Assembly: GCA_947561395.2 (NCBI GenBank)
Contig: OX387184.1
Coordinates: forward strand, 41,282,766 to 41,346,765
From: Buxus sempervirens
Taxonomy: Eukaryota > Streptophyta > Magnoliopsida > Buxales > Buxaceae
Direction: 5' to 3'
DNA: 64,000 nucleotides
A program made the position numbers and the translations under genes. Below the pieces are notes generated by a model that did not search any database, was not told the origin of the DNA, and saw only the letters and a program-made list of their open reading frames with translations. Of this stretch, positions 4,543 to 34,972 are shown piece after piece (the stretch's first letter is position 1; every line of letters starts with the position of its first letter).

Positions 4543-4642
4543 CCGTATTTCATTCACGGGCCGGTCGCGCCCGAAATATCTCTACGGTCAGGCGTGCCCG
4601 TATTGGAAATACGGGCACCATTGGACCGTAACTCATTTACGG
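4543..4642. promoter_or_regulatory. Dyad array in the 5' LTR of A (4 units)
   Basis: Four 17 bp dyads of the form CCGTA-N7-TACGG start at 4543, 4571, 4598 and 4626, a period of 28, 27 and 28 bp. The central 7 nt and the 10-11 nt spacers differ between units while the arms hold (one arm is degenerate in units 1 and 2). It lies in U3, upstream of the TATA box. Confidence 0.85.
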
Positions 4643-4844
4643 TCACTAAAGACTCGTGCGAGTTTTATTTTTCTCTCGATTTCCGAGCTTTATCTTTAGT
4701 CCAATATATCTTTAAATGAGCGAATTACTCCTTTTATTCACTGAAGCCACCTTGGTTGGCTAAGGATGGGCATGATCTTGTGTTTAACTCAAACTGAAAC
4801 TCTATCTTGCCAAACTATGGACCAGCCTTGCCCCTGTGCTTGCC

Positions 4845-4853
4845 TATAAATAG
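4845..4853 (+). promoter_or_regulatory. TATA box of element A 5' LTR
   Basis: TATAAATAG preceded by GCC and followed by AGGTGAG. It is the only strong TATA motif in the LTR. The identical motif occurs in the 3' LTR at 24166-24174 and, on the minus strand, in the related solo LTR at 62453-62461. Confidence 0.8.
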
Positions 4854-6258
4854 AGGTGAGATTCTCAAGCTGAGGGCCACGAAATTTTGAAGTCGAAGGA
4901 ACTCCAAAGAACTCAAAGAGAAGAGAGGAACCCCAGCTGCCTTGCTTGCTCAATCCAGGTAAGTCCCTTTTCCCTTTTATGTTCTGTCTTCAATTCTAGA
5001 AGTAATAGGATCATCTCTATTGCTGTAGAATAATGCCATATTTTGTATCTAGTATTCCTAAACTTGCCTCCAAGTACCTTAAGAGTCTCTCTAGCCGTAA
5101 AACGTGAAGAGAGAGCTAGGGGAAAAGAGAACAGGTGGATCCCTAGAATAGAACCCCATATCTGTTTTTCTCCTTTTTTCTAGAATAAAGCCTCTGATTG
5201 TATTTGTATACCCAAACCTATCTCCAAGTACCTCAAGAATCCTCTCTAGCAGTAAAACGTGAAGAGAGAGCTAGGGGAAAAGAGAACAGGTGGATCCGTA
5301 TGGTAGACCCCCATGTGCTCTAATCTGTGAGATGTGGCTGCTTTAGATATCATGATCATGTTTTAATGGTTTTTATGATGAATCTGGATGAATAACATGA
5401 ATCTATGATGTTTATAGCATGAGATCCCCACTTTTTGATAAAATTTGAATTTTTGCCACTTTTGCACCTACAGCACTGTTTTCGTGATTTTTGTGATTTT
5501 AGGCTAAGATCTTAGATTTATCATGATCAATATGGTAGATCTGAATCCAGAAGCCTGAAAATAAATTCTAGGGTTTCATGATGTGGTTTTTAAATCATTT
5601 GTCATTATTGAGGGAAGACCCTACGGTCTAAATTCTCCCCTGTTGGTGTTTTTCATCAACGTGGGTATTTTTGATTTTGATTTTTTGATTTAATGTGAAA
5701 TTTGGGCTATATCTATGTCCTGGAATGTTCAAGTTCAATTTGAAATATTTTATAAAAATCATATTTTTCTAGATTTCTAGAATTTAACTTGAAGCCAGAT
5801 TTTTGGATTTTTCACTTTAAATTGATTTTATTTGATTTCATCTCAATTTTATTTTGATCATGAAACCCTAGGAATGTTATGATCATATTTGAAAGTTCTG
5901 GATCAATCAGACAATTCATATGAAAAAACCATATATTTTTGTCTTTTTTGTGATTCTTCCTGATTTTTATAGTAAGCCTTTCTTCTTTGTAAAACATGAA
6001 CAATACCTGGCAACCACCTTGTGTGGATGAATAGGGGTGACTAACACCTTCCCCTGCTCATAACTTAATCCCCTTACCCATCTCTGGTTGTTTTTTAAGG
6101 AGGGTTATTTTTACCCTAAAATTGCCTTTTGTGCTTATTTAATATCTTGGTGTCCATTCACACCTAAATTGAATGGTGGCGACTCTTTGTTTAATTTAAT
6201 CCCGCGTGATGATTGAGGAAGTCATTGGATTTTCTGATTTTTTCCCATGTCTCACAAC

Positions 6259-7479: not shown

Positions 7480-7608
7480 CCGTAGTTGATACACGGACTG
7501 GGCTCGTCCGTATTAGTTATACGGGCTGGGCTCGCCCGTGGTTTCCATACGGTCACAGCTCACTCGTAATTTAAATACGGGCAGGGCTAGACCATACTGT
7601 GTATACGG
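7480..7608. promoter_or_regulatory. Dyad array in the leader of A (5 units, exact 28 bp period)
   Basis: Units start at 7480, 7508, 7536, 7564 and 7592, each 17 bp (CCGTA-N7-TACGG or a one- or two-base variant) plus an 11 bp spacer. Spacers such as ACTGGGCTCGT and GCTGGGCTCGC resemble each other, while the central 7 nt are unrelated. This is the same dyad as in the LTR, 1.2 kb downstream of the primer site and 1.15 kb upstream of the gag ATG. Confidence 0.85.
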
Positions 7609-7763
7609 TTTTCGCAGAAAATTCAATTTTAATCAGTTTTTCCCACTGAATCTTATTCCTTTAACCTTTAAATAATGATAAAGGGAAATAGGTTTGAATA
7701 AAATGCTTCAAAAATAATAATAATAATAAATAAATAAATAAAAGTGTGAAGAGAAAATCCTTT

Positions 7764-8520
7764 GGGCCTCTGAAAGCCTTTGAATTTCAGACTTTTTCTC
7801 AAAAACTCCTTCGGGCCTCTGAAAGCCTTTGAATTTCAGACTTTTTCTCAAAAACTCCTTGGGCCTCTGAAAGCCTTTGAATTTCAGACTTTTATCAAAA
7901 ATCCCCGGGCCTCTGAAAGCCTTTGAATTTCAGACCTTTTTCTCAAAATATCCTTGGGCCTCTGAAAGCCTTTGAATTTCAGATCATTTGGGCCTTTGAA
8001 AGCCTTTGAATTTCAGACCTTTTTCTTTTGGGCCTCTGAAAGCCTTTGAATTTCAAACCTTTTTCTTTTGGGCCTATGAAAGCCTTTGAATTTCAAATCT
8101 TTTGGGACTCTGAAAGCCTTTGAATTTCAGACCTTTTTCTTTTGGGCCTCTGAAAGCCTTTGAATTTCAGACCTTTTCTTTTAGGCCTCTGAAAGCCTTT
8201 GAATTTCAGATCTTTTGGGCCTCTAAAAGCCTTTGAATTTCATACCTTTTTCTTTTGGGCCTCTGAAAGCCTTTGAATTTCAGATCCTTGGGCCTCTGAA
8301 AGCCTTTGAATTTCAGATTCTTTTCTCAAAAACTCTTTGGGCCTCTGAAAGCCTTTGAATTTCAGACTTTTACCAAAAATCCTCGGGCCTCTGAAAGCCT
8401 TTGAATTTCAGACTTTTTCTCAAAATATCCCTGGGCCTTTGAAAGCCTTTGAATTTCAAACCTTTTCGAAACCCCACCCCCCCCCCCCCCCGGGCCTCTG
8501 AAAGCCTTTGAATTTCAAAT
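7764..8520 (+). repeat. Tandem array of about 18 palindromic units in the leader of A
   Basis: The unit core GGGCCTCTGAAAGCC followed by TTTGAATTTCAGA recurs about 18 times with variable spacers (unit lengths roughly 33-58 bp). Each unit holds an inverted repeat, TCTGAAA and TTTCAGA, around 9 nt. A run of 15 C lies at 8477-8491. It ends about 240 bases before gag. No coding potential. Confidence 0.9.
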
Positions 8521-8761
8521 CTTTCTCTTTTTTTTTTGTGGGACCTGTTGGAAGCCCTAGAATATTCCAACAATTCACTTCAAAAAAAAAAAAAAAAGAA
8601 GCAAATAAAGAAAAAATCCAAACTCGTGTTCACCCAGCTTGCACATAGGCATTCCTAGGCATGTGAATGAGATTAATTGGGCACTGATTTTTTTTATTTT
8701 GTGACCAGGTACTAATACACTTGCAATCATAGCTCCTGTAACCAGATCAAGAGCTCGCGCC

Positions 8762-11700
8762 ATGAATTCCATTGAAGACGAAGCTGATGCTCCTCATCCA
8801 GATGTTGTCCTACTCCAAGAACAAGTAGCAGGACTAGCCCGAATGCTAGAGAACGTATTGTCCGTACAGGCCCAACAAATGCAGGCCCAGAACCAAGCAT
8901 CCACTTCCAACCCAGCACCTCCACCCCAAATCAATATTCCACCTCCAGTGCAACCAACTCATGAATCCGTCTGTGAACCCACCCCTGAACCTATACTAAC
9001 CAGGGATGAGACAGCTGAGTCAAACAAGGCTAAGGAAAAGGAAAGGATAAGGGAAGAGGTTGAAAGAAAGTTCCTGCACAAACTGGAAATAATCCAAGAT
9101 GTACTTAGAGAAGTAAAAGGGGTGAGCAACTTCGGGGGCACCAACTTTGAGGACTTATGCTTATACCCCAACGTTAACCTGCCGGCTAAGTTCAAGTGCC
9201 CAAACCTAGACAAATATGATGGCACTGGCTGCCCCATGAGCCATCTGAAGTTGTACTATGGTGCCTTATGCCAGTTTGGTCGAGATGAGGGTGTTCTGAT
9301 TCAGCTCTTCCAAAGGAGCCTGACTGGAACCGCATTAAGGTGGTTCACTACTCTAGACCATGGAAAGATTAGAAGATGGAAGGACCTAGCAGATGCCTTC
9401 CTAGCTCAGTATCGGTTCAATTCAGAGATCGTGCCAAATAGGTACGACGTAATGAGAATGAGCAAGGGAAGAGACGAATCTGTGAGACAGTATGCCAAGA
9501 GATGGAGGGAGATAGCCTCTCAAGTTAGGCCACCCATGCTAGAGCAGGAGATGATTTCCACCTTCATCAGTACATTGGGTCAGCCATTCTACAGCCACCT
9601 GGTGGGTCAGACCACCACTAATTTTGCGGCTTTAGTACAAGTAGCCGATCGAATCGAAGACGGAATTAGGTCGGGTAAAATAATTGACCACTCTGCTATG
9701 GTCAGTCAGCAAGACCCCAATGTGAAGAAAGGAAGCGGGATGAAGAAAAATGGAAACAAGAAAGAAGGGGAGGTAAACATGGTGCAGCCACCATCAGGCC
9801 CTAACAAGCCCATACAAATCAACATACCTGCTCATTTTCCTACTCCATCTCCATCTACCCAGGCCCCTATGAGGGTTAATGTTCCAGCAGCACCTTCAGA
9901 CCAAAAAAGGGTTTTTACTAAGGAGGAAAAGGATGCTTATTTTGCAACAAGGAGAAATAGGGTTTTCACCCCTATTCCAATGACTCCTTCTTAGTTGCTG
10001 CCCACCTTATTGCAAGCAGGGTATATCACCTTAAGAGAACCCAATCCGAATGCACCCAAGGGGAGAAATTTTGACCCCTCCACCACTTGTGATTACCACA
10101 TGGGTGCACCTGGGCACCCTACTGACAAGTGCTGGCCTTTGAAACATGCCATTCAGGATTTACTGGACCAGAATACCCTGTCTTTCAATACAGGGGCTCC
10201 CAATCCTCCTAGAACAGATATTGGACAGAACCCTCTGCCCCAGCATCATGGGGCAGCTCCATCTAATGTTATAGGTGTCGTCTCTTCTAATAAAATAACC
10301 TTTGATCCATCCCAGTTAATTGCTCCAATAGGGACAAGGGTCAAGGTTTATTTTAACAGAATAAATAAGGAAAAAGAAATAAATGTAATTTCAAAGGGGA
10401 ATGATAGTGCTGCAAAGAACATTAGCTCATCTCTGGACCGGGTCGTGTCCCTCATGGCCCAAATTAACATTGCAAAACCACCATTGGTCATCAATTGCAG
10501 TCCATCCACCTTTACTTCACCCATTCATTCCAAACCACCATTGGTCATAAACTGTGACCATCTTAGTGCATCCGTCACTTCTGCAACCCCCCAACCAAAA
10601 CAACTTCCACCATTGGTTGTTAATGTCCCCCTTGCTTAGACTTCCACAGCCAAGTCTAAACTTCCTCCCTTGGTGATAAATGTCCCCAAGCCTTCCTACT
10701 CCGAATCGGCCGTACCATGGAACTACAGTAAAGCTTTTACCACTACATGCCCTGCAGCTGAAAGCAAGGAAGAAGTGAACCTCATGATGAGGTCGGGAAA
10801 ATGTGTAGGAGTGGAAGAAAAACAAAAGGAAACAGAGAAGGAGAAAGAAGAAAAAAATAAAGGAAAGACCAAGGTAGGGGAAGATGCCCCTCAGGTAACT
10901 AACAGTGAGGCTGCAGACCTCATTAAGGTAATAAAAAAGAGTGAGTTCAATGTTGTCGAACAGTTGAACAAAGTCCCTGCCCAGATCTCAATTCTGGGAT
11001 TATTGTTAAATTCTGAAAAACATAGGGATTCCTTGTTAAGGATACTCCAGGGGGCCCATGTGCCTAAAAACATTGAACCAGACCAACTAGGCCGGATGGT
11101 TGGGCAAATATTATCCCACAATGTCATAACTTTTTCTGAGACCGAGATCAGCCCAGCAGGGTACCATTATGTAGACCCATTGCACATAGTTGTACTCAGT
11201 AAGGGCTGCATGATAGCCCGGGTCTTGATTGATAATGGGTCGGCTCTCAATGTCTGCCCACTGATAACCTTTGTTAAGCTCGGTCTGGAGCAAAACAAAA
11301 TAAAGCATAACGGAAGAATCATAAGAGCATTTGACAGCTCTAAAACACACTCCCTAGGGGAGGTTGAACTACCGGTCACAATTGGACCGTATATTTTCAA
11401 CATCACATTTGAAGTGATGGATATACCTGCAGCCTTCAACCTACTCCTAGGAAGGCCGTGGATTCATACAGCTAGGGCTATACCATCTACCCTCCACCAA
11501 AGAGTCAAGTATATCAGAGGGCAAAAGGTGATTACTGTCCTAGCCGAAAATTTGGTTCCCCCCATGTGGTCCCCTGATGTACCCTACATAAACATGGAAA
11601 TGACTGCTGATAAGATGGCATTTCACTCTTTCCAATTTGAAACTGTTAATTTCATACTTGGGGGGTATCAGGAAAAAGAAGGAAAGTTGACCTGTACTGA

Positions 11701-12376
11701 GAAGATGGTCAAGAATGTGCTAGAAAAGTACAACTTTCACCTGGGAAAAGGTCTGGGGGTTAACCTGCAAGGAAGGATAGAACCGATAAAAGTTAAGAAG
11801 ATGGTTCATAGAGCAGGATTGGGGTCCAAGCCAAGGAAATGGAGAAGTCAGAAGGAAATAGAAGACATAAAAATCCCGCACATCAGGGAAACTTTTCCTA
11901 AGCTTTCTCACATGATTCAGCTGTCTCCTCCTGAGGATCAGTCCAAACCCCTATACTATAACATCAATCCATTCCAGAAACCCAAGTCCTCAACCGTGCA
12001 ACCATATGTTCCACCTCCACCTCCACAAGCATTGGGTGGGCCTGGGCCACATACTGAACAGAAGCAGGACTTTTTTGAGGACGTGGGAGCATTCTTTGCC
12101 ATGACAGAAGGCAACCAAGAAGAAGTAGCAGAGGAGCTACCTTTTATTGATTAGGCTGCAGTAGAAGTCCCATCTGGGACAAGCCCTACAGAAGAAGCAG
12201 GCGATGCAACTCACCCAGTATTGGTGATTTCAGATGCAGACCCCGAGCTTGAGGAGCAGGCTTGTATCCCTACCCCAGATTCTTTTATTTTGAATAATTG
12301 GGAGGAAACTCCTCTTATTTTTGAAGCCGCGTTTGTTTGGCAAACAGACATGGCTTCCAAAAAAAAACTCCATTAG
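8762..12376 (+). pseudogene. gag-pro: Element A gag-pro ORF
   Basis: One reading frame from ATG 8762 to TAG 12374-12376, broken by three in-frame TAGs (9992, 10637, 12152). Element B has sense codons at the first and third of these. The retrotransposon gag domain lies around residues 140-300 (LKLYYGALCQFGRDEG, LTGTALRWF, YRFNSEIVP). It is followed by a zinc-knuckle-like CDYHMGAPGHPTDKC (C-x2-H-x5-H-x4-C) coded near 10090. The aspartic protease follows, with VLIDNGSALNV (DNG in place of DTG/DSG, as in other Tat elements) and LLLGRPWIH. After it comes a G-patch-like GKGLGVNLQG stretch. The product would form the particle and process the polyprotein. The RT frame overlaps its last codons at a nine-A run. 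Confidence 0.92.
12359..12367 (+). other. Candidate -1 ribosomal frameshift site (A9) between pro and RT
   Basis: A run of nine A directly after TTCC. The gag-pro frame ends three codons later (CTC CAT TAG), while the pol frame is open through the run and is reached by a -1 shift. Element B has the same run (41298-41306), the same frame relation and the same CAT TAG end, with one extra codon between. Confidence 0.55.
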
Positions 12377-15300
12377 TGGAATGCCCTTTTCCTGAAGGTT
12401 TTAATGAGCCTTCGTCTTCAGGGAAAGATTTTGTAGAAGGCTCTCAAAAAACACAAAAAGATTTTTCAATTTTTTCTAGAAAAGATAAAGTTTTCAAAAA
12501 GGTCCAAACCATTTATGAACCATATAAGCAAACGGAATTGAATCAGGATGGGTATGACTTCGACCTTGAGCTCGACTTTGACCTAATGGGGGTTGAAGAA
12601 GAGACCGAGGACGAAGAAGACGACCCCCCAAAAGAAATCACATATCAATTGGAGCGTCATGAAAAGGGGGTCCAACCCAATATTGAAGAGACCATATCAG
12701 TAAACCTAGGGACCAAAGATGACCCAAAAATAGTAAAGATTGGGGTATGCCTATCTGAGGTACAGCGTGATGAAATGATACGGTTCTTAGCTGATTATGA
12801 AGATGTATTTGCATGGTCGTATCGGGATATACCAGGGTTAGACACGGACATGGTTGTGCACAGGCTACCCATTCTACCAGATGTTAAGCCAGTTAAGCAG
12901 AAATTGGGAAGGTTGAAACCAGAGTGGACATTGAAGGTCAAAGATGAAGTGGTCAAGCAATTCCAAGCCGGATTCTTAGCAGTCTCCACGTACCCTGAAT
13001 GGCTTGCAAATATAGTGCCAGTACCAAAGAAGGATGGAAAGGTCAGAATGTGTGTAGACTACAGAGATTTGAATAAGGCAAGTCCAAAGGATGATTTTCC
13101 ACTTCCACACATAGACATCTTAGTGGACAACACTGCTGTACATAGTCTGTTCTCATTCATGGACGGGTTTTCTGGGTACAATCAAATTAAGATGGCTAAG
13201 GAAGACCAAGAGAAGACAGCCTTCATCACCCCTTGGGGTACCTTCCATTACACTATCATGCCCTTTGGACTTAAGAATGCCGGGGCAACCTACCAACGGG
13301 CCATGACAGCCTTATTCCATGATATGATCCATAAGGAGATGGAGGTCTATGTGGATGATATGATAGCCAAATCATATGAAGAAGAAGACCACTTGATCAA
13401 TTTGAAGAAGGTGTTTGACCGGCTCAGGAAATATAGTCTAAGGCTTAACCCTGCGAAATGCGTCTTTGGGGCTATATCAGGAAAATTATTAGGCTTTATA
13501 GTAAGCAGGAAGGGAATTGAGATTGACCCAGTTAAAGCCAGAGCAATCATTGAAATGCCATCACCTAGAACGGAGAAGGAAGTTCATGGTTTTCTTGGAA
13601 GGATTCAGTACATAAGCCGGTTCATAGCACAGCTCACCGCTATCTGTGAACCAATTTTCAAACTTCTAAGAAAGAATAACCCGACAGTCTGGAATGACGA
13701 TTGCCAAGAAGCCTTCGACACAATAAAGGTGTTTATTGAACCCACCTGTGCTAGTACCGCCAACTCCAGGAAGACCATTGATTTTATACCTGTCAGTTTT
13801 GGAGACATCAATGGGGTGTGTCTTGGGACAGTATGACGATACAGGCAGAAAGGAGAGGACAATTTACTACCTAAGCAAGAAATTTACAGAATATGAAGCA
13901 AAGTACTCTCCTTTAGAAAAGACTTGTTGTGCCTTAGTGTGGGCAACTCAGAGGCTGAGGCATTATTTTCTTAGTCATTCCACCTTATTGATATCTCGAA
14001 TGGACCCTTTAAAGTATCTATTTGAGAAACCAGCTTTAACTGGCAGAACAGCGAAGTGGCAGTTATTACTCTCTGAATTTGACCTCACCTATATCACACA
14101 GAAAGCCATTGCTGATCACTTAGCTGCACACCCTTTACCAGAATACCAACCTTTGAAGACTAATTTCCCTGATGAGGCAATCCTATTTACAGAAGAAGAA
14201 GAAGGAGAAAGCTCTTGGCAAATGTTTTTTGATGGGGCTGCCAATATGAATGGAAATGGAATAGGGGCTTTTTTGATCAAGCCAGATGGGGCACACATCC
14301 CAATTGCAGTGAAGTTAAGGTTCCAATGTACAAACAATATAGCAGAGTATGAAGCATGCATAATTGGGTTGCAAGCTGCCTTGGACCATGAAGTAAAGGA
14401 ACTTGACGTATATGGGGATTCGAGTCTTATCATCTTCCAAACAACTGGTGAATGGAAAACCAAGGATCACAAATTGATCCCCTATCACCAGTATTTGGAA
14501 GATATAAGCACTAAATTTACTCGAATTTCCTTCAATTATATGCCAAGGGCCAAAAACCAGTTTGCGGATGCTCTAGCAACATTGGCTTCAATGGTCAGTA
14601 TGCCAGAAGGTGTTGATATTAGACCACTGGAAATTGAAGTTAGAAACGAACCAGCTTATTGTCTTGTTCTAGAAGAAACCCTAGAAGAAGAAGTACCATG
14701 GTTTCAAGATATTAAGAACTTCCTAAATAATCGGAGTTTGCCAGAAAATATCACTTCTACAGAGAAAAGAACAATACAGAAGTTGGCAGGACAGTTCTTA
14801 CTAAGTGGTGGTCAGTTGTACAAAAGATCACACAATGATATACTACTTAGATGTGTTGCAAAGACCGAGTCAGAAAGGGTAGTTGAAACGGTACATGGAG
14901 GAGTGTGTGGACCCCATATGAATGGGCACATGCTTGCTAAGAAGATTGTGCGATTGGGATATTACTGGTCGACTATGGAGCATGATTACTATATACATGT
15001 CAAAAGGTGTCATTTATGCCAAGTGTATGCGGATAACAAGAATGCACCCCCAAGTGAATTACACAACATGACATCTCCGTGGCCCTTCTCCATGTGGGGT
15101 ATAGACGTCATTGGGATGATCTCTCCAAAGGCATCAAATGGACACAGGTTTATACTTGTAGCAATCGATTACTTCACCAAGTGGGTAGAGGCAGCTTCAT
15201 ATGCAAACATTACAAGTAGCCACGTTTTGAAATTCTTGAAGCACAATATCATTTGTCGCTACGGTTTGCCAAGTGCCATAGTATCAGACAATGCTTCAAA

Positions 15301-15946
15301 CCTTAAGAACAAGGACATGAGAAAGATGTGTGAACAATTTCACATCACCCACCATATGTCAGCTCCGTATAGACCAAAGATGAATGGGGCAGTGGAAGCA
15401 GCAAATAAGAATATAAAGAAGATCATTCAGAAAATGGTAGTGAGTTTCAAAGATTGGCATGAAATGCTGCCACTTGCTCTACATGCTTACAGAACCTCAA
15501 TCTGGACTTCTACAGGGGCAACCCCGTACTCTTTAGTATATGGAATGGAAGCAGTTTTACCAGTGGAAGTGGAAATACCATCACTAAGAGTGCTAATGGA
15601 AGCTGAATTAGAAGAAGCTGAATGGATACAATCAAGACATGATCAACTCAATCTAATAGAGGAAAAGCGATTAAAAGCGCTTTGTCATGGCCAATTGTAT
15701 CAGAAGAGAATGGCCAGGGCTTACAATAAGAAGGTGAAGCCCAGAACTTTCCAAGAAGGAAATTTGGTATTAAAGAAAATTTTACCCTTTTTGGAAGATC
15801 CTCGTGGAAAATTCAAACCAAATTGGGAAGGACCTTACGTTATCAAGAAGGTCCTATCAGGGGGTGCTCTCATCTTAACAGAAATGGATGGGAAGGATTT
15901 TCCTGAGCCAATTAACTCTGATGCAGTAAAGAGATATTTTCCATAA
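12359..15946 (+). pseudogene. pol: Element A pol: RT, gypsy RNase H, plant-type RNase H, integrase
   Basis: RT spans about 12800-13480 with FSFMDGFSGYNQIKM and an intact YVDD (coded at 13348-13359). A one-base deletion near 13737 moves the frame; the rest is open to TAA 15946. Gypsy RNase H covers 13760-14120 with a decayed first catalytic position (LYLSVLE). The second, plant-type RNase H lies at about 14220-14580: MFFDGAANMNGNG, AEYEACIIGLQAA, DVYGDSSLI and NQFADALATL. The integrase follows, with its HHCC finger (HGGVCGPH ... CHLCQ) and D, D, E in WGIDVIGM, VSDNASN and GAVEAANKN, then a C-terminal GPYVIKKV segment. The double RNase H marks the Tat lineage. B's pol aligns along the whole length. 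Confidence 0.93.
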
Positions 15947-16883: not shown

Positions 16884-18630
16884 CTAATCCCTACTCCCTA
16901 ACTGCTCCTCAAGCTCCCTAATCCTAGCTGCCTGATTTGCAATGATTCCAGAAGCTCCCTCTGCATCAGGATCACTCAAAAAGGAGATGACTTCCTCTGA
17001 AAAAGAATGCTTGATCTTCAACGCCCTAAGGTCGGCCAAGGAATCCTGATATTTCTTCCGCATCACTCGGACTTCAAAGCGACGAGCTTGACTTTGTTCT
17101 TCAAGTTTCTTCTCCATGGCAATGCGGCTAGACTTCTGCTCTTCAAGTTTCCTCTCCAGATCAATGACTTTTATCCTAAGTTCTTGAGCCTCTCGTACCC
17201 ATATTTGTTGAAGCCGCTTATAGGTTGCCCTTTCAGACTCCAGAATGTCCTCATAGGTAGGAGAAAGAACTACAGGACGATCCTCTGGAACTGGGGCATG
17301 ACTCTGCACCTGCTCTTTGATCCAAAAGTGATAGTCCTTCACATGGGACTCAGAAAAGACAGGACCCCGCAGAAAGCGAACATAGGACCACTCATTCATT
17401 AATTGATCATTTAGCCCCATGGTAGCTGATGTAAGTGGTCCTACAAGGCTCTCATAGCCAGTTGGGATCATAATTCTCTGGGTCACTCCAAACTGCCGAA
17501 GAACCCTCAAAGGAAGATAGAGAACAGCAGATTTCAAGCCTGCTAGAACCAGAAAGTTCTTATCTCTGAAGCTGATCACTGTCTCTGGAACAGGCTGATA
17601 AGTGCCAGGCCATCTCACTTGATCATCCTGGAGAGTACCCAAGAAATTGAACCATCCCTACTTGCCGCCTTGGAAAGAAGCGGCGAGTTATCTCTTCAAC
17701 CTTGGAAAGAAGCGGCGAGTTATCTCTTCAACTTGGCTCGGGTGGTCAAGCAACCAAAGCTGTAGAAAAGGGGATTATTTCAATTTATTTCCAAAAAGAA
17801 AAAAAAAGAAAAAAAAGAGAAGAAAAAAGAAAAAAAAAGAAGGAAAAGAAAAAGAGAAGAAGAAGAAGAAAAGAAAAAAAAAAGAAAAAGAAAAAGAAAA
17901 GAAAAAATATATATATATGTATATTTTTTACCTGTAGGATAGGGGCGCAGGCAAGGAAGCGCTTCTTCTTTCTGAAATAGCAGTCAGTAAGGGCCTGGTA
18001 TATCTCTGCTAAGATCATAGGGGCCAACCTCTCACGTTCCCTAACCTGGCAGATAACTGAGATGAGAGCCAAGTCAACCTGGTCATCACCCCGTGGAAAA
18101 AGCAACTGATTGACCACTATCAGAGTCAATGCATTAAACCTGGCATCCTTGTCCCCACTCCTTAGAAGTTTTTCAGTCAAAAAGGTCTTGGACAAGGTCA
18201 ATAGTGTATCAGAATTTCCCAAGTCTTTTTTCTCTATACCCAAGAAAGTGGAAGCCTCCTTTTTGTAACTAGGCTTTAGGGGTGGGTTCACAACTTTTTC
18301 AGAAAATCTTAGGCCAAGGATGGTTTCAATTTCTTCTATGGTAGGAGTCATCTCTTTATCATCAAAGCGGAAGAGATTCAGTTCAGGTACCCAGTGTCCA
18401 ATCAAAGCTTCAATGATTTCCCACTTAAAGGGAATTTTAGGGAGGTGTAGGATATGCCCTAAGTGGATGGAATCCCAACGAATCTCCTCGTCAAGGGTCA
18501 TGGAGTTAACCCATCTATCGTAGAAGGAGTCCACAATATTGTACCTGGTAAGATTAGGAGGTTTTGATCTAACAGGGTGTCTTGCAGGAGGAGATTCAAG
18601 GGCAGGAGAAAGCGGCGTAGGGGAAGCCAT
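16884..18630 (-). pseudogene. Element A antisense gene 2 (aORF2): DUF7745-like protein with coiled coil
   Basis: Exon 1 runs 18630-17932 and ends CAG/GTAAAA; exon 2 runs 17759-16884. The intron (17760-17931) is polypyrimidine-rich on this strand. Exon 1 holds the DUF7745-type pattern known from plant transposon-derived proteins: RWVNSMTLDEEIRWDSIHLG, then WVPELNLFRF and MTPTIEEIETILGLRF. Exon 2 has the VRWPGTYQ, FLRGPVFSESHVKDY and YEDILESERA segments, then a long charged coiled coil to LEEQLGSRD. A 32 bp tandem duplication and a deletion at the start of exon 2 break the frame. A TATA box and a dyad array lie just upstream. Its function is unknown. The same gene with the same splice sites occurs in B at 35103-36783. 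Confidence 0.8.
17669..17732. repeat. 32 bp tandem duplication inside aORF2 of A
   Basis: Two identical 32-base copies (17669-17700 and 17701-17732) beginning CTTGGAAAGAAGCGG. B has a single copy and, next to it, about 50 bases that A lacks. The change disrupts exon 2 of aORF2. Confidence 0.9.
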
Positions 18631-18720: not shown

Positions 18721-18730
18721 GTTTATATAG
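18721..18730 (-). promoter_or_regulatory. TATA box of aORF2 in A
   Basis: CTATATAAAC on the minus strand, about 90 bases upstream of the ATG at 18630 and 25 bases downstream of the dyad array. B has GCTATAAAAG in the same relative place (34986). Confidence 0.7.
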
Positions 18731-18754
18731 AAAAAATCGTTAAGGCAATAAAAT

Positions 18755-18883
18755 CCGTAAATAGAATACGGGCATATCGCGCCCGTATAAAAAATACGGA
18801 CAGATTGTGACCGTGAAAAATTTACGGGCACAGTGCGCCCGTGTTCATATTACGGGCACAGCTTGCTCGTAGTCTAAGTACGG
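18755..18883. promoter_or_regulatory. Dyad array upstream of aORF2 in A (5 units, exact 28 bp period)
   Basis: Units start at 18755, 18783, 18811, 18839 and 18867. Each is CCGTA (or CCGTG/TCGTA), 7 variable nt, TACGG, then an 11 bp spacer that often reads GCACA..TGCGC. It is the same motif and period as in the LTR and leader, here serving a minus-strand gene. Confidence 0.88.
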
Positions 18884-23307: not shown

Positions 23308-23407
23308 CCGTAAAATCAGTACGGGCATCAGATGCCCGTGAAAGCAATACGGTCCCGTTCGCCCGTGAACAACCTACGGGTAGCATCTATCCGTAAGCCA
23401 AATACGG
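23308..23407. promoter_or_regulatory. Dyad array upstream of aORF1 in A (4 units)
   Basis: Units CCGTA or CCGTG, 7 nt, TACGG start at 23308, 23336, 23363 and 23391 (28, 27 and 28 bp). It lies upstream of the CT-rich leader of aORF1 on the minus strand and about 350 bases before the 3' LTR. No clear TATA box is seen next to it. Confidence 0.85.
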
Positions 23408-23863: not shown

Positions 23864-23963
23864 CCGTATTTCATTCACGGGTCAGTCGCGCCCGAAATAT
23901 CTCTACGGTCAGGCGCGCCCGTATTGGAAATACGGGCACCATTGGACCGTAACTCATTTACGG
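23864..23963. promoter_or_regulatory. Dyad array in the 3' LTR of A (4 units)
   Basis: Copy of the array at 4543-4642, with the same four units and only a few base changes. The arm of unit 1 and the spacers have changed while the TACGG arms are unchanged. Confidence 0.85.
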
Positions 23964-24253: not shown

Positions 24254-25263
24254 TGTGGACATGGTCGCACGGGTAGGCACGCCTCCTAAAGGGTAATTCG
24301 GGAATGTTGGAGTCACCACTGCCTGATGGAGTGCAGGCAGACACCTGGGTGCCTAGGTTTTTCTATTAGGCGGTCTGCGGCTTGAGATTCTAGGCAGGGT
24401 CTTGGTTACGGTCCGGGGAAGTCCGTAGACACCCCGGTCCGCCCCGTCGGATGACGGGTCCCACGGGTTTCCTGGTTTTGAGTCAACTTGGTCTTGGTCT
24501 ATTCACCCAATTCCTAAGTCAAAGCATGCACATTTGGTTTAAGTCTGGTGGGACCACCTGAGTGGTGTGGGTCCCTTTACTTGATTTTATCTTGTTTGGT
24601 TAAGTGGTCTTAGTCTGATTGGGTGGGCCCCATTGGAAGGCCCACGAATCCCTTGGTGGGCCTCGATCTAAGCCTGGGAGGCCCTTTGGGCTTTGGTTTA
24701 GTGAGTTGATTTTATTTCAAGTTCAAGTTGGGAGTTAAATTGAATTTCATGCAAAAGTGAGCCTGATGGGTTTGTGGGCCCCTTAGATGGGGCCCGCAAT
24801 GGTGGCCAAGTGATTTGACTCATCCTGTTTTAGTTGTGCCAAAGTGGGCTAGGCATGGGCTTGGGGCCCATAACCTAGATTTGGGCTTGAAAGCCCAAGG
24901 CATTAGAGTTGGGGTAGTGGATCCCCTCCTTATTTGGTTAATGGGCTTGGCGGGCCCGATAGACCCTGGCCCACAGTCTCGGCCAAACCACACCTAGGCT
25001 ATCCAACATGCTACAAATTGGGCTTTGGTGGGCCTCCAATGGTGTGGCCCACTCGATTGATTTAATTTGTTTATTTGAAACAAAGTGAGTTGGTTGGGCT
25101 TGGTGGGCCCCATTGGAAGGCCCACAAGTGAATCCAATTAGACCAGAGTGGTCCAAGTTCCATTTTGGGTGACCCAGAAACCCTACTGGTTCACCCGGTT
25201 TGATTAAAAGATCATAAAAATAACATAAAACAAAGAACATACAAAAAATGACATTTCCACAGT

Positions 25264-25405
25264 GTAGCCGACCTGAGTTGTCGGCTACACACAAAAGCCC
25301 ATGTAGTCGGCCTGGAGTGTCGGCTACACACAGAAATACATGTAGCCGACCACCAAGGTTGGCTACAAACAAAAATCTACTGATCCGACTTGAGTTGTCG
25401 GATCA
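25264..25405. promoter_or_regulatory. Dyad array of D (4 units, exact 39 bp period)
   Basis: 25 bp dyads start at 25264, 25303, 25342 and 25381. The consensus is GTAGCCGAC, 7 nt, GTCGGCTAC, then a 14 nt A-rich spacer. Unit 4 reads TGATCCGAC and GTCGGATCA: its outer bases changed in both arms together, keeping the symmetry. GCCGAC equals the CRT/DRE core known from cold- and drought-responsive plant promoters. Confidence 0.88.
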
Positions 25406-26540
25406 GTCTAAAAGTGGTCTTTTTTGAGATTTTTTCAAGTGGGCTAGCTTTTGGGGCTTCCCAACTCCCTGGCAGCAAGCAAGTGAAGCAAATAAAGTTC
25501 ATCTAAGCAACAAACAAGATGCATGCTTTAGATCCTAGTGAGTATGTGCATGTGCACGTGCATGACCATACTTTATATGAACAAAGTTGTAGCCAAGGAA
25601 GATGGGGATCCTTGCAGGGGGCTAATGCACATAAACATGCTTGGTGTGTGTTTGTGAGGAAAAGTGAAAAAGGGGGGTAGGTCACTATTCCAGCAGCAAC
25701 TAAAACAGGTCACAATGGGTGGTATGGGAAAAAAAACATGCTTCCAAGATACATGTTAATAAAAAACCTAAATCTGAACAAGTAACCATGATGCAAAATG
25801 ACATACTTAAACACACATGAAACCAAGATGCAAAGCCAAACAAGAGAAGGGATGAGAGGAGGAGTTAATGGGGTACAAAGGAATAGAAAATGAAGGGAAC
25901 AAACTCCCCATTCGAATGGGATAAATCAGTAGCAAAATAGGACTCTAAAAACCACTAAGAACATATGCAAGGTGATCCTCTTCCTCCCTTGAGGCCGGCC
26001 ATGTGTCTTCCCCTTACCATGGGATTTTTCTTGTGCAAAATGGAGAAGAAAAAGTAGAGGAGAAAGACATTAACATGCTAGGAGAAGAAGAAAATAACAT
26101 GCTAAAAATGGAGGACACTCCAACTTGGTTAGAACATGCTCATTCCAACTTATGATGTACAAAATACCAGTGAAAGCATTACCTTGGGGGCTAAGAGCCC
26201 TTTTGAGATGTGGTTGAGGATCCTTTGGGGTGTGGACAGCAGCCGTACACCCCCTTGCTCCTTGCACCACCAAGCTTCTCCTAGCTCCAAATGAAGAAGA
26301 AGAGAAGAGGAGGGGATCAAGAGAGGTTTGATTGAAGGAGGTTCAAGTGTGGGAGAGGTGGTTAATAGGAGGGAGCTTGGAGATGGAGAAGGGCTTGTGG
26401 GAGAGATCTTGGGAGAAGAAGAATGGAGTGAGCCACCAAAATGAGCTCCTTCCATACGTATGGGGCTCCATGGGGCTTTTATTATGTTGATTATGATGGG
26501 TGAATGCATATGATGCATGCATGGGGAAAAGTGTTTGGAG

Positions 26541-26683
26541 GAGAGAGAGAGAGAGAGAGAGAGAAGGATGCATGAGGTGGTGCATGCATGGATGATGCAT
26601 AGGGGATGCACATGGGGAACACTAATCATGAGGGAGAGAGAGAGAGAGGAGCATGCATGATGCATGCATGGGTGATCATGGGG

Positions 26684-26724
<41 letters not shown>

Positions 26725-26752
26725 GTATGCATGATGCATGCATGGATACTCA

Positions 26753-26804
<52 letters not shown>

Positions 26805-26856
26805 GCTTGCATGCATGATGCATGGGGATGCACATGGGGAACAAGAATTTATGAAG

Positions 26857-26887
<31 letters not shown>

Positions 26888-26950
26888 GATGTGGTGGGGA
26901 ATTAAGCATGTGGGGGATGAGTTATGGACGAGAGAGAGGGAGAGAAAGAT
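26541..26950. repeat. GA microsatellites in D
   Basis: Several (GA)n tracts at about 26541-26562, 26633-26648, 26688-26722, 26756-26802 and 26857-26881, separated by strings built from GCATGATGCATGCATG. Long ORFs across these tracts are repeat artefacts. Confidence 0.9.
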
Positions 26951-29465
26951 GTGGTAGGGAATTAAGCATGTGGGGGTGATTTTCTTGGTAATTGTAGATT
27001 AGTCCTAGAGCTATTTTAACATCAACTTGCTATTCACATATTTGCCCCTAGATAATTACAGATATGCCATCAGATATTTTTGACTGTCCTGATTATTTAC
27101 GGCTTTGCCCCCAGACACCTTTTTCTGCTGTTTTCTCTGCCGTTTTTGCCACATGGGCAGTTTTTAGGCTTTATTGTTTTGCTTATAACTTATTATCCGG
27201 AACTCCGATTCGAGCAAACTCAGTTGCATTGGAATCGTGTCAGGATGACTTGTCCACTGGGATAAGTTTGGGTAGCTGTTCTGGGGTTTAGCAGAAAGTC
27301 AACTTCTGCTCCCCCTCAAGTTTGACCGGCCTGCAGAACCTTCATCCGGACTCCGATTCCAGCAAACTCAGTTGCGTTGGAACCGTGTCGGGATTCTCTA
27401 TCCATTGAGATAAAGCAAGGTGGCTAAATTGCACTTGATCAAAAAGTCAACTTTTGCCCCCTTAGGGTTTGACTTTTCAGCTAGGGTTTTGAACTGTTTT
27501 GTTGTCTTTTAGCACATTTTTTGTTTTCTTATTTTCTTTTCTTTTCTTTTCTTTTTCCTTTTTTGGTTTGATCAAAATTTGGGTGCTTACAGAACCCCCG
27601 CTGCCTTGCTTGCTCAATCCAGGTCAGTCCTTTTTCCCTTTTATGTTCTGTCTTCAATTCTAGAAGTAATAGGATCATCTCTATTGCTGTAGAATAAGGC
27701 CATATTTTGTATCTAGTATTCCTAAACTTGCCTCCAAGTACCTCAAGAGTCTCTCTAGCCGTAAAACGTGAAGAGAGAGCTAGGTGGATCCCTAGAATAG
27801 AACCCCATATCTGTTTTTCTCCTTTTTTCTAGAATAAAGCCTCTTATTGTGTTTGTATACCCAAACCTATCTCCAAGTACCTCAAGAATCCTCTCTAGCC
27901 GTAAAACGTGAAGAGAGAGCTAGGGGAAAAGAGAACAGGTGGATCTATAGGGTAGACCCCCATGTGCTCTAATCTGTGAGATGTGGCTGCTTTAGATATC
28001 ATGATCATGTTTTAATGGTTTTTATGATGAATCTGGATGAATAAAATGAATCTATGATGTTTATAGCATGAGATCCCCACTTTTTGATAAAATTTGGATT
28101 TTTGCCACTTTTGCACCTACAACACTGTTTTCGTGATTTTTGTGATTTTAGGCTAAGATCTTGGATTTATCATGATCAATATGGTAGATCTGAATCCAGA
28201 AGCCTGAAAATAAATTCTAGGGTTTCATGATGTGGTTTTTAAATCGTTTGTCATTATTGAGAGAAGACCTTACGGTCTAAATTCTCCCCTATTGGTGTTT
28301 TTCATCAACGTGGGTATTTTTGATTTTTATTTTTTGATTTAATGTGAAATTTGGGCTATATCTATGTCCTGGAATGTTCAAGTTCAATTTTGAAATATTT
28401 TATAAAAATCATATATCTAGATTTCTAGAATTTAACTTGAAGCCAGATTTTTGGATTTTTCACTTTAAATTGATTTTATTTGATTTCATCTCAATTTTAT
28501 TTTGATCATGAAACCCTAGGAATGGTATGATCATATTTGAAAGTTCTGGATCAATCAGACTATTCATATGAAAAAACCATATATTTTTGTCTTTTTTGTG
28601 ATTCTTCCTGATTTTTATAGTAAGCCTTTCTTCTTTGTAAAACATGAACAATACCTGGCAACCACCTTGTGTGGATGAATAGGGGTGCCTAACACCTTCC
28701 CCTGCTCATAACTTAATCCCCTTACCCATCTCTGGTTGTTTTTTTAGGAGGGTTATTTTTACCCTAAAATTGCCTTTTTTGCTTATTTAATATCTTGGTG
28801 TCCATTCACACCTAAATTGAATGGTGGTGACTCTTTGTTTAATTTAATCCCGCGTGATGATTGAGGAAGTCATTGGATTTTCTGATTTTTTTCCCATGTC
28901 TCACACTATCACAATGAATACGATAGATCCGAAATACAAGCCGATTCCGACAAAATGAGTGCGATGTGTGCATGTGTAAAAATAATTTCAACACATCATG
29001 ACATATAGCATTCAAAGCATATCAATTAAATGGGGGTTCTAAAAACTAGGGTTCCATTCAATTCTCATTTCCCCTAGTTCTCTCTCCCCGTTTTACGGTT
29101 TCGAGATAGTCTTGGAATACTTTGAGTATGAAACGGTTTTCACAGAACAAAAGGCCATTCAAGAGGGTTCTATAACTAAGGATCAATTCCCAGTCCCGTT
29201 TCCCCTTCATGTTTTACTGCTAGAGGGAGTCTCGAGGTACTTTGAGTAGGGAAAGGGGTTGCATATACAAAGAGTAGGCCATTATTCTACAAAAAGGTAG
29301 AAGAAAGATCTAACCCTAGAATGTAAAGACATAAAAATAAAGAAGTTCTAGGCTTACCTGGGTTTCTGGAAGCAATGCGGCAGCGGTTCCCTTCTTCACT
29401 CGGAGCTTTCCAATCTCCAACTTCTGGCTCTATAATTCTTCACCATTTGCTTGAGGAGGAACCTC

Positions 29466-29641: not shown

Positions 29642-29781
29642 TATCCGACAACTCAGGTCGGATATAAAGGAACATATTTGTATCCGACACATATCGTCGG
29701 ATACAATAATACTTGCTTGTATCCGATGACTTGTGTCGGATATAAAAAAGCTTGCTTGTATCCGATGACTTGTGTCGGATA
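29642..29781. promoter_or_regulatory. Dyad array in the LTR of B (4 units, exact 39 bp period)
   Basis: Units at 29642, 29681, 29720 and 29759: TATCCGAC (or TATCCGAT), 7 nt, GTCGGATA, then a 16 nt spacer that tends to end TTGCTTG. Central 7-mers vary between units (AACTCAG, ACATATC, GACTTGT). Confidence 0.88.
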
Positions 29782-30450: not shown

Positions 30451-30512
30451 TACCCGATGTATTTGGTCGGATAAGAAAACCTTCATTTGTATCCGACGTA
30501 AGTTGTCAGATA
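30451..30512. promoter_or_regulatory. Dyad array upstream of aORF1 in B (2 units, 39 bp apart)
   Basis: TACCCGAT, 7 nt, GTCGGATA at 30451 and TATCCGAC, 7 nt, GTCAGATA at 30490, with a 16 nt spacer. It lies just before the CT-rich leader of the plus-strand gene, as in A. TTATATGAG at 30521 could act as a weak TATA. Confidence 0.8.
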
Positions 30513-31725: not shown

Positions 31726-34637
31726 ATGGCTAGAGGTTGCTCTTGTGTGCGAGAGGAGGTTGATCCTGCTGATCAGAGTGCCACCTTGTCCGAGCCATTA
31801 GATGATTCCAGAGAGAGCTCTGGAGAGGGCTCTGCTGAGGTAGGCTTCCCAATATTTTCTTTTCCCTCCTATTTTTTTCTACACAAACCTTCATACTTTA
31901 CACTTTTGAATTTTAGCCCGTTGTGGTTCCTGCTCGAGGTCATGGGAGAGACCGAGGTCGAGGCCGAGATGGAGATCAGGCAGAGGAGGCCGTTAGAGGT
32001 AGAGGACGAGGCCGAGGTAGGGGCCGAGTTCAGGATCAGGCCCTTGAGGGTGAGGAAGGCCGTGGCAGAGGCCGAGGACGTAGCAGGGCCAAAGGTGCGG
32101 TTCAGGATCAGGCCTCTGGAGGTGATGCTAGGGGGTTCCAGTTAGTCTTTCATGTGGAGTTGCGAGCATCTGTTTAGGACACTGAGCTTCTCAGTGGGTT
32201 GGATCATCATCCATCGATGTGTGTCCGAGCAGATCTTCCTCTTCAGTATCCTCCCTCTCATCTCCGAGGTAGTTGGGGGAGGTTCTATGAGTTGTATCAG
32301 ACCCTTTCTCCCGGACTCAGATGGGAGTTTCGTAGATGCCGCTTTGATCATTTTCTACTCATCCCGTCGTTCCGAGCGGACCTCCCTCTTATCTTTGCCA
32401 TGCTGGAGCGATACTTTCCTGACACACAGTCCTTCCATCTGCCGGATGTTGAGCTGGGGATTCATCCTTCAAATTTTGTTATGCTCACTAGCATCCCCTT
32501 GACGGGTAGGACTATTGAGATGGAGCGTCCTTCAGCTGTGGATATTTGCACCTTGTTAGGGTATGACGATCTTTCTGAGGCTGCTTGGGATGACAGGAGT
32601 GGTCGGATCTCTATCAGCTGGTTACGTGGCAGCATTATCGATCACACTGACCGGAGGCATGCGACTATGGCTGAGGATCATGAAGGCTTCGTCCCTCTAT
32701 TCCGATGGGTCTTTCTGTTGATGCTGGGTAGCTGCTTCTTCCAGGAGGATACGACATCGGTCAGCCCTGTCTTTTTGGATGTCCTGAGAGATCTTCGGCA
32801 GACCAGGTGGTTAGCATGGGGCCGGTTGATATATGGGACTATATTAGCCGGACTGAGTCGAGTCATCCGCGATCTGGCTGCTCTGAGAGGGGATGGTATT
32901 AGCTGCTGATTTTTCTGGAAGATTTTACAGGTAAGGAATATTTTTGCTTAATTTCTTTTAAAAATTCTTTTATCTCCTTCTAACTTGTTTTCTTTCCTTG
33001 CCAGATATTCATGTATATACACATGACATATTTCCGCCCTTCTCCTGTGCTTGGTGCCACAGAGTTCCCCGTAGCTATACTGTGGTCTGTTCTTGAGAGG
33101 GACGCGGATAGGAGCCAGCCACGATCTGCCCGGGTGCACTTAGACCGCTCTCGCCATTTTGATGTAAACTTTCCTCACCCTTCAATCTTCTGTTTTCCTC
33201 AAAACTACCTTTGTATCTGACACTCTTTATTTTGATTGCAGCTCATACTGGCCCGCCAGGACGTGGATGACGAGGTTGCTTGTTAGGAGATGGTACAGGA
33301 TGCCTTTGAGCGAGATGTGCGACGCCAGTCCTACCAGTGTTTCATCGAGAGACTTGGCAGGATTATGTATTTAGGCGAGCGCCTATACTTTCAGCATATG
33401 AGCGTCCCTCGCATTCCTGTTTATCCACCTCCCGTTGGTCCTACCATCCTCCTACCTGGATTTGATGTTGCCCAGTTTGATCAGTGGGAGGATGCGGAGG
33501 CGCTTATAGTAGCCGGGGATTATGAGGAGTTGATTTAGAGAGTATCCATCGGCTATCTGATGGACCGGTCCACCCATGCCGAGGTGACTGAGATAGGCGG
33601 GATTTTTATCCAGGTTCATGATGACACTGTAAGTTACCTTCTCCTTTCTTATTTCCTTCAGTTCTGTATTTGTGCCTCTAATCCCCTTCTTGTTGATAGG
33701 TAGAGGAGTTGAATGCTCTTCGGGACCGGTTCCAGAGTCAGCGAGCCACTATTGATGATATGATCACCGAGCATGATGCGACCGTGGCCCAGAGAAATGC
33801 CTGAATCAGAGAGCTGGAGGCTTTGGTTGCTGAGCTTAGGGCTAGACAGGTATCTAGTTCTTTATAACTCTATCTCTTTCCTTTCTAATATTTCCCTGTT
33901 TTTTTGAAATGAAATGTTTGACTTTTGCAGGATCCAGTCCCAGATCATGGTGTTGCCTTTGAGCCAGACCTTCCTGTTCCTAGTCCATCTCCGGTTTGGA
34001 CTGTTGATCCCGAGGACACCTCAGCTGCTGACCCGATTGTATCTCCTGTTTCTGCTACTCTTGTGGATCCTGTTGGCACCTTATCTCCAGTGATGGTTCC
34101 TGATCCAAAGGACATCCCGGCCGCCGACCCGGTTGTATCTCCTGTTTCTACTACTCCTGCGGATCCTGTTGGCACCTCATCTCCAATGATGGTTCCTGCT
34201 CCTGATGTCCCTAGTAAGCCTTCTTCAGCGTCATCTCTTAGGTTCATTTTTGTACTTCAATTTTTGACTTCATTTCCATTAATCCAGCTATTTCTGTTCC
34301 TGATCCTCCTTCCGCTGCTGCCGAGACTTCTGGAGCTGTGCAAGTGGAGACTACTGTGGCTGAGGACCCAGTTGAGCCCGAGGCGGCTATCCTTCAAGCC
34401 AAGCCTGCTCCTGCTGAGCCAAAGGCTTCCTCATCAGATTCTGTTCCTACTGGCCCATATCCTGACAATTCGGCCTACTATCTGAAGTATCAGATTCAGT
34501 CCTTTTTGGGCCGGAGACCACGCTATCTTGCCGAGCGCCTTCTGACACGTGTCTTTAGGCATCGACCATCTCGAGGTAGAGGCCGTAGAGGAGCGCGTGA
34601 CAAAGGACGCGAGGATGATCCTGCACAGGAGCAGTAG
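31726..34637 (+). pseudogene. Element B antisense gene 1 (aORF1): seven-exon PMD-like protein
   Basis: Exons: 31726-31839, 31917-32930, 33005-33163, 33242-33628, 33700-33849, 33931-34213 and 34288-34637. All introns are GT-AG and 73-81 bp long. All phases are consistent, and exon 3 has the same length as in A (159). Exon 2 starts with a strongly RG-rich stretch (RGRGRGRGRGR). The PMD-like region follows: CVRADLPLQYP, GRFYELYQTLSPG, MLERYFPDTQSFHLPD, VELGIHPSNFVMLTSI, LLMLGSCFFQEDTTSV and LAWGRLIYGTILAGL. Exon 5 is a coiled coil, exon 6 has repeated Pro/Val/Asp-rich modules (VSPVSTTPADPVGTSSP), and exon 7 ends in a basic RG tail. In-frame stops lie near 32175, 32908, 33284, 33536 and 33802, so it is dead. 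It is sited between integrase and the 3' LTR, opposite to pol. Confidence 0.83.
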
Positions 34638-34832
34638 ATTAGGATTTTTATGTATTTATATCATCCTTGTACGAACGAGACTTGCATATATATGAAAAAA
34701 AAACTTTTTATTCATTCTCTCTTGTTTTGCTCTCTTTTTCTTCTCATTTTTGTGCAATTATAACTTGTAAACAGGTAAAAAATTTGAATTTTTCTTCATT
34801 CTCTTTTTTTTTTTTTTTGCTCTTTTTCCTTG

Positions 34833-34972
34833 TATCCAATATATCAGATCGGATACAATAACATGTTTTTGTATCCGACAAGAAATGTCGTATATAAGCA
34901 ATTTCTTTTGTATCCGACAGTTTTCGTCGGATATGAACAAAACCTTTTGTATCCGATCTAATATGTCGGATA
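34833..34972. promoter_or_regulatory. Dyad array upstream of aORF2 in B (4 units, exact 39 bp period)
   Basis: Units at 34833, 34872, 34911 and 34950, 23 bp each (TATCCGAC, 7 nt, GTCGGATA and variants) with 16 nt spacers ending TTTTG. It ends 14 bases before the TATA box. Confidence 0.88.

Follow-up and report, generated by a model that had tools for sequence, protein, structure and literature searches.

Family-specific CCG-N11-CGG dyad arrays in Tat-clade retrotransposons of Buxus sempervirens as putative operators of a dimeric DNA-binding protein

The closest precedents for the sequences discussed here appear to lie in two groups of transposable elements (statements on cited papers refer to the portions of them consulted). 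The nearest published system is probably that of the Sireviruses, Ty1/copia elements whose palindromic, family-specific and high-copy RM boxes have a CGG/CCG core, cluster ahead of the TATA box in the long terminal repeat (LTR) and ahead of an extra gene located between pol and the 3′ LTR, and are described as being of unknown function (Bousios et al. 2010, PMC2829016). The class of mechanism that we consider is exemplified by VANC, a protein encoded by VANDAL transposons that reads tandem arrays of short motifs in the element's own non-coding DNA, with related VANDAL families using different motifs (Hosaka et al. 2017, PMC5735166; Sasaki et al. 2023, PMC10398659). In this report, we describe arrays of CCG-N11-CGG dyads in a Tat-clade Ty3/gypsy retrotransposon, element A, and in its relatives, starting from a 64 kb window (C4:41282766-41346765) of the 676.5 Mb genome of Buxus sempervirens, the one genome from which all counts and rates below are taken. 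We consider it probable that these are operator arrays for a sequence-specific dimeric DNA-binding protein, most likely the element's own antisense product.

The Buxus arrays share with the RM boxes their palindromic, family-specific and high-copy character, the CGG/CCG core and the clustering in the LTR and before an extra gene. The Sirevirus core runs in the opposite direction, however (CGG-N4-6-CCG, counted from Table 3 of PMC2829016), so that the Buxus dyads, with their outward CCG-N11-CGG core at a fixed distance, fall outside the RM-box definition of a CGG-CCG core with a small gap. The Sirevirus extra gene is env-like, whereas that of Buxus is antisense and encodes a plant mobile domain (PMD), and the consulted portion of the Sirevirus account mentions neither a fixed 17-bp frame nor a fixed period (PMC2829016). 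The Sireviruses also belong to a different superfamily, Ty1/copia, in which integrase precedes reverse transcriptase (RT); here, it follows RT and RNase H. As in the VANC systems, the Buxus arrays are family-specific tandem motifs in the element's non-coding DNA, but VANDALs are DNA transposons, the motifs quoted for them are words of 8-9 nt rather than fixed-distance dyads, and binding and demethylation have been demonstrated for VANC whereas the Buxus system is known from sequence alone (PMC5735166, PMC10398659).

Tat/Retand elements provide a further point of comparison. Their antisense genes likewise lie between pol and the 3′ LTR, are suspected DNA binders of unknown function, and tandem-repeat arrays are common in Retand elements too; these genes carry the TRP28 domain (PF04195), however, and the portions of the accounts consulted describe neither dyad arrays nor promoter sites (PMC11963269, PMC7264820). 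PF04195 was detected in none of 10 window open reading frames (ORFs) at E<=1, PMD and DUF7745 domains being present instead. The first-pass annotation of the window knew of no description of a system of this kind. For Tat elements that stands, as we found no report of such arrays among the papers listed by searches of the open-licence literature (subscription papers and preprints were outside its scope), but the published Sirevirus boxes and VANC motif arrays are similar enough to qualify the broader claim.

A rescan of the window, allowing up to one mismatch in the dyads of A, recovered the arrays at the positions annotated in the first pass. They are listed here without strand, together with the elements that carry them; element B lies in reverse orientation and has the same genes as A, and the solo LTR D interrupts A.

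4438-28905, forward strand: element A, Tat-clade Ty3/gypsy retrotransposon, with an LTR pair, LTR starts TGTAGACA, the target duplication CTATC and gag-pol domains
24254-27591, reverse strand: D, a solo LTR within the 3′ LTR of A, with the 5-bp target duplication GAACC
4543-4642: A array in the 5′ LTR, 105 bp from the LTR start; four dyads (4543, 4571, 4598, 4626)
7480-7608: A array between the 5′ LTR and gag; five dyads (7480, 7508, 7536, 7564, 7592), period 28
18755-18883: A array upstream of aORF1; five dyads (18755, 18783, 18811, 18839, 18867), period 28
23308-23407: A array upstream of aORF2 and about 350 bp away from the 3′ LTR; four dyads (23308, 23336, 23363, 23391)
23864-23963: A array in the 3′ LTR; four dyads (23864, 23892, 23919, 23947)
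25262-25407: D array, period 39; dyads at 25264, 25303 and 25342 and a fourth with altered, still mirrored outer arms
29642-29781: B array in the 3′ LTR of B; four dyads (29642, 29681, 29720, 29759), period 39
30451-30512: B array upstream of the aORF2 of B, outside its 3′ LTR; two dyads (30451, 30490), period 39
34833-34972: B array upstream of B aORF1; four dyads (34833, 34872, 34911, 34950), period 39

The period of 39 applies to every step in B and to D; that of 28 is the main step in A, three of the five arrays having a single 27-bp step. The window holds 32 occurrences of CCG-N11-CGG where 2.4 would be expected (standard deviation 1.6); none of 100 shuffles reached 32, and a few of these occurrences fall outside the arrays. 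When all gaps from 0 to 38 are compared, the 32 occurrences at N11 stand against 1-9 at each other gap; a further 17 are seen at N39. Several A spacers are dyads too (for example ATACGGGC-N7-GCCCGTAT at 18766), so that half-sites alternate about every 14 bp; some A spacers also yield CGG-N11-CCG. Centres and spacers vary within one element as first described, with most positions differing inside a single array while the cores match. In the fourth D dyad (25379-25407), the arms are perfect over 11 bp and the outer letters have changed alike on both sides relative to the sister dyads.

The same core with other flanks is found upstream of aORF1 in three more groups, E (13 copies), F (one copy) and G (one copy), bearing out the expectation that other Tat families would carry it. 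The half-sites and periods are as follows.

A: GCCCGTR, period 28 (27)
B: TATCCGRY, period 39
D: GTAGCCGAC, period 39
E: AACCG, steps 28 and 41
F: TAACCGAA, steps 38 and 39
G: CCGCA, period 28

In E, the mirrored letters are limited to CCG-N11-CGG with outer AA/TT, indicating that what is constant is the distance between CCG and CGG and not a 7-nt centre. The shared 17-bp frame proposed at the outset is present, but the invariant 7-nt centre that went with it fails in E, and CCG-N11-CGG states the rule better.

Genome-wide counts reveal the same spacing. CCGTA-N7-TACGG is found at 28,303 places (1,785 for the reversed control) and accounts for 92.7% of the 30,533 matches to CCGTA-N0-20-TACGG, the other gaps adding 2,230, or about 111 each. 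For TATCCG-N0-22-CGGATA the count is 42,708, and 379 for its reversed control; N11 is seen in 85 of 88 distinct sites among the matches listed. The counts for bare CCG-N11-CGG are 163,369 and 126,325 (reversed control), and for AACCG-N0-22-CGGTT 31,837 and 19,526 (control). Within the segments upstream of aORF1, gap spectra of CCG-Ng-CGG (g from 0 to 30) give g=11 shares of 111/124 in A, 46/57 in B and 39/79 in E.

Arrays or cores are present in most copies picked by protein similarity, contrary to the absence from most family members that the first-pass annotation would have counted against its reading. The slot upstream of aORF1 in A (18755-18883) is occupied in 28 other copies: 30 A loci were cut, including the window's own copy (L005), and all 29 used hold four or five dyads (up to one mismatch). 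At least one strict core is present in 18 of 20 B-like segments (none in L069 and L078) and at least one core in 17 of a mixed sample of 20 segments picked by protein only (none in L087, L088 and L095), the 17 comprising, by eye, ten E, three A, two B, one F and one G. By contrast with these, 26 of the 30 loci found with the DUF7745 profile (L035-L064) lack an array, the exceptions being L038, L046, L053 and L057. Eleven of the 26 hold one CCG-N11-CGG site, and the six that were placed in the aORF1 tree fall outside the array-bearing families, at 35-42% identity to A. Many of these array-less, high-copy loci are intronless ORFs of 430-500 amino acids.

Element A encodes gag, RT, RNase H, a second RNase H and integrase in gypsy order (RVT_1, RT_RNaseH, RVT_3 and rve in this order at 12337-15946). 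A second, archaeal-type RNase H before the integrase is a marker of the Tat clade, and A combines the gypsy order and two RNases H with two antisense ORFs (aORF1 and aORF2), both opposite in strand to gag-pol and located between pol and the 3′ LTR. The ORF between gag and RT (window 10670-12154) contains a G-patch domain (PF01585, 1.3e-5). The antisense genes and their TATA-like boxes are placed as follows.

16884-18630, reverse strand: aORF1 of A, two exons, DUF7745/plant mobile domain (PF24924, 2.3e-21; PF10536, 1.2e-12)
18722-18729, reverse strand: TATA-like box of A aORF1, TATATAAA, 25 bp past the last dyad
19217-21936, reverse strand: aORF2 of A, several open pieces, bounds approximate, with an Arg/Gly-rich N-terminal stretch and a plant mobile domain
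31726-34637, forward strand: aORF2 region of B, open pieces, bounds approximate, plant mobile domain
34986-34993, forward strand: TATA-like box of B aORF1, TATAAAAG
35103-36783, forward strand: aORF1 of B, two exons with DUF7745; the position of the start codon is a hand count

The A arrays occupy the start of each LTR, the interval between LTR and gag, and the regions upstream of aORF1 and of aORF2. In A, B, E, F and G the last dyad at aORF1 ends some 15-25 bp before a TATA-like box, those of E and F being weak matches. The B array at 29642 lies about 100 bp from the start of B's 3′ LTR (about 29884, reverse strand). Four sets of exact B-type sites in the first-listed stretch of contig C1 show five slots like those of A, at offsets of 0, 3.7-3.9, 15.0-15.6, 19.5-19.8 and 20.1-20.7 kb (0, 2.9, 14.2, 18.8 and 19.3 kb in A), with one exact dyad in the fourth slot of each set and one dyad in the second slot of two; from this spacing, the four sets probably represent whole elements. 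Near the LTR start of the G element, four sites of period 28 were recognised by eye, three of them with 1-2 mismatches and the other exact; a decayed pair lies outside the LTR.

The first-pass annotation asked whether arms evolve more slowly than centres and spacers. In A (29 copies) the difference is large: pi (nucleotide diversity) is 0.014 in the core, 0.064 in the inner arm, 0.049 in the outer arm, 0.230 in the centre, 0.327 in the spacer and 0.097 and 0.077 in the flanks, with 0.025, 0.010 and 0.112 at the three codon positions of aORF1. Relative to the flanks (bootstrap over copies) the A core lies at 0.05-0.32, the centre at 2.4-3.2 and the spacer at 3.5-4.6. The B values are 0.136 for the core, 0.072 for the outer arm, 0.397 for the inner two positions, 0.225 for the centre, 0.390 for the spacer and 0.173 and 0.140 for the flanks, and those of E 0.093 (core), 0.019 (outer arm), 0.155 (centre), 0.137 (spacer) and 0.112 and 0.096 (flanks); L069, L077, L078 and the A copy L008 were left out. 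The difference between core and centre plus spacer was reached in none of 20000 permutations in A and in two in B, columns being treated as independent and the copies being related to each other. Core CpG is slower than other non-coding CpG in A (0.021 against 0.186) and in B (0.157 against 0.274), where C-to-T or G-to-A changes, read in half-site letters, make up 28 of the 31 core deviations, as expected of methylation decay. Rates and CpG comparison together indicate strong constraint on the arms in A, partial constraint in B (outer arm, CpG) and, in E, constraint on the outer arm only.

Centres outpace flanks in A, B and E (lower bounds 2.41, 1.08 and 1.26) and spacers do so in A and B. In the aORF1-upstream arrays of A (L005-L034), centres and spacers reach 2.4-4.6 times the flank rate, which could reflect diversifying pressure or exchange between arrays.

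These rates bear on the idea that the arrays are functionless, being tandem duplications or a satellite seed that recent amplification has kept in register. The tandem units keep a fixed period, young A copies are numerous (aORF1 is 95-98% identical in 149 other scored matches) and Retand-type elements often have family-specific tandem arrays of unknown function (PMC11963269). Against this, centres and spacers differ at most positions within one array while cores match, the same slots are filled in families with different units, and the A core pi lies 16-23 times under that of centre and spacer. Tandem duplication alone was set aside on this last ground, and we give the idea hardly any weight.

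Further evidence comes from concerted differences between half-sites. In the B-like copies L083 and L084, 8/8 half-sites read TATCCGG, with G at position 4, whilst most half-sites of their relatives read TATCCGA; L065 is intermediate (6/8 TATCCGG), and B-type sites on C1 are, by eye and among the matches listed, mostly TATCCGG. The between-copy share of variance at position 4 is 0.67, against a mean of 0.19 and a maximum of 0.44 in shuffles that ignore relatedness. When the centres of L084 are compared with those of relatives at the same places, dyad 1 is exact and dyads 2 and 4 are close (dyad 1 of L083 is unlike). That several centres are still recognisable makes re-amplification of one unit unlikely.

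Paired arm changes, about which the first-pass annotation had asked, are seen in part: symmetric and asymmetric non-major states number 21 and 15 at A position 5 and 10 and 11 at B position 4, but nearly all deviations in the core affect one side only (0/31 symmetric in A, 0/31 in B and 1/13 in E). The alternative that pairing is selected rather than letters, the dyads being hairpins in RNA or extruded DNA with roles in packaging, as a small-RNA source or in recombination, draws on the mirrored changes, on the mirrored variant that is D's fourth dyad and on the ability of each dyad to form a stem of 5-11 bp. A hairpin requires complementarity alone, however, yet a CCG/CGG core is present in every family seen, the E inner arm is not complementary, and the arrays at aORF1 lie upstream of the TATA-like box and thus outside the likely aORF1 mRNA. 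Arm mismatches of A/C type outnumber those of G/T type in A by 12 to 3, leaning towards pairing in the gag-pol strand, but this is uninformative as most come from one homologous dyad in one subgroup. With core changes one-sided, the hairpin explanation was rejected and we consider it very unlikely.

If the arrays are operators, which protein might read them? Within the window, A and B are 82% identical in RT, 88% in RNase H-integrase, 67% in gag, 72-73% in aORF1 and 43-47% in aORF2, the most diverged gene between them; other B-like copies are 83-84% identical to A in aORF1. A and G are 80% identical in aORF1 and 64-77% in aORF2, and aORF2 of B is 37-50% identical to that of A or G, the A-G and B identity intervals being separate in two of three aORF2 segments. 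The periods of A, G and B are 28, 28 and 39 and their half-sites CCGTA, CCGCA and TATCCGR. As A and G share a period and a near-identical half-site, unlike B, array grammar goes with aORF2 in these elements, which is suggestive only. The divergence of aORF1 (73-84% identity in all pairs) does not follow the arrays, and support for joining A with B in the aORF1 tree is only 86/81. The comparison makes aORF2 the more likely candidate reader of the two, although the second exon of aORF1 ends in a stretch that looks heptad-like by eye and could dimerise. Domesticated PMD proteins offer a parallel: MAIN and MAIL1 are needed for expression of genes sharing the 'DOWN' promoter motif, with their contact with DNA described as open, but they are host genes and the motif quoted for MORC1 (CATGCAGTTT) has no CCG dyad (PMC7156037, PMC9899485).

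The sites might instead be read by host transcription factors, as borrowed activators, or by host repressors, with no involvement of element proteins. Placement beside TATA-like boxes suits any promoter factor, and the B and D half-sites include CCGAC, the core of plant DRE (dehydration-responsive element) sites. Matches to plant stress-factor sites have been reported for the Sirevirus boxes (PMC2829016). On the other side, half-site flanks and period vary by family while aORF1 stays 73-84% identical and the CCG-N11-CGG spacing stays constant, and among the three elements compared the difference tracks aORF2. We know of no single host half-site that covers GCCCGTA, TATCCGA, TATCCGG, AACCG, TAACCGAA and CCGCA. 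On balance, host factors seem to us an unlikely explanation, though one to be taken seriously.

The dimer-operator reading is thus favoured by the fixed spacing, the promoter position and the concerted half-site switching, from which we infer protein binding, a dimeric reader, its identity and a regulatory effect. A dimer would bind the tandem sites, holding the two CCG triplets in a fixed 17-bp frame (CCG-N11-CGG), with each subunit reading family-specific half-site letters around the invariant CCG. The arrays would act at the element's transcription units (the aORF1 TATA-like box, aORF2, the LTR starts and the LTR-gag interval), and the candidate reader, aORF2 with its plant mobile domain and Arg/Gly-rich stretch in preference to aORF1, may auto-regulate the element that encodes it or counteract its silencing, as VANC does.

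Several observations weigh against this reading. The core is not significantly slower than the flanks in B (ratio 0.52-1.09) or in E (0.52-1.25), so that the proposed slowness of the arms is unclear there by this measure. For E, core and centre plus spacer do not differ (2158 of 20000 permutations reach the difference), and CpG evolves no more slowly in the core than elsewhere (0.139 against 0.133); AACCG-N0-22-CGGTT shows little N11 preference genome-wide (6 of 78 distinct sites among the matches listed), indicating that E-type sites are not dominant there. The copies used for rates and occupancy were chosen by protein similarity, with family calls in the mixed sample made by eye. As L083 and L084 group as sisters in the tree of aORF1 (94/96), their half-site difference may represent one history. 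The aORF2 link comes from three elements, one of which has stops in a compared piece; aORF2 of E was not found at the expected place in L114, and none was found for F, L112 having no aORF2 match. Searches of solved structures with PMD and DUF7745 gave no significant relative, and a DNA-binding fold is not established for them.

A few other features of the window and samples deserve mention. An A-family solo LTR lies at 61062-62867 on the reverse strand, with GATAG on both sides and a decayed A-type array at 62663-62763; GATAG is the reverse complement of the CTATC that flanks element A, and the further flanking letters are unlike by eye. A second type of dyad array, not of CCG type, is present in the LTR-gag interval of A (7754-8528), where TCTGAAA-N9-TTTCAGA occurs in 12 exact copies starting at 7769-8390, within a 33-49 bp tandem repeat. 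L112, upstream of the aORF1 of F, carries E-like arrays and, at 792-960 in reverse orientation, four copies of CCATGT-N6-ACATGG, without CCG, at steps of 38, 74 and 38; similar repeats are seen elsewhere in L112 from translated ORFs. A 22-bp minisatellite of about 40 copies at 47499-48368 is open in two frames (259 and 190 amino acids).

Going further, we tentatively suggest, with somewhat less than even confidence, that Tat elements encode their own fast-diversifying operator code, in which a dimeric aORF2 protein reads the CCG-N11-CGG frame through a PMD acting as a sequence-specific DNA-binding domain, each family having its own half-sites and period (28, 39, 28/41). This would be the counterpart of VANC in LTR retrotransposons, and the A centres and spacers, changing at 2-4 times the flank rate, would possibly be escaping host small RNAs. 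Tens of thousands of candidate sites of exact grammar, a candidate reader and families differing in letters and period make the function of the Tat antisense genes, and DNA reading by the PMD, accessible to simple binding experiments. If true, retrotransposons, like DNA transposons, would evolve private regulator-operator codes in an arms race with the host.

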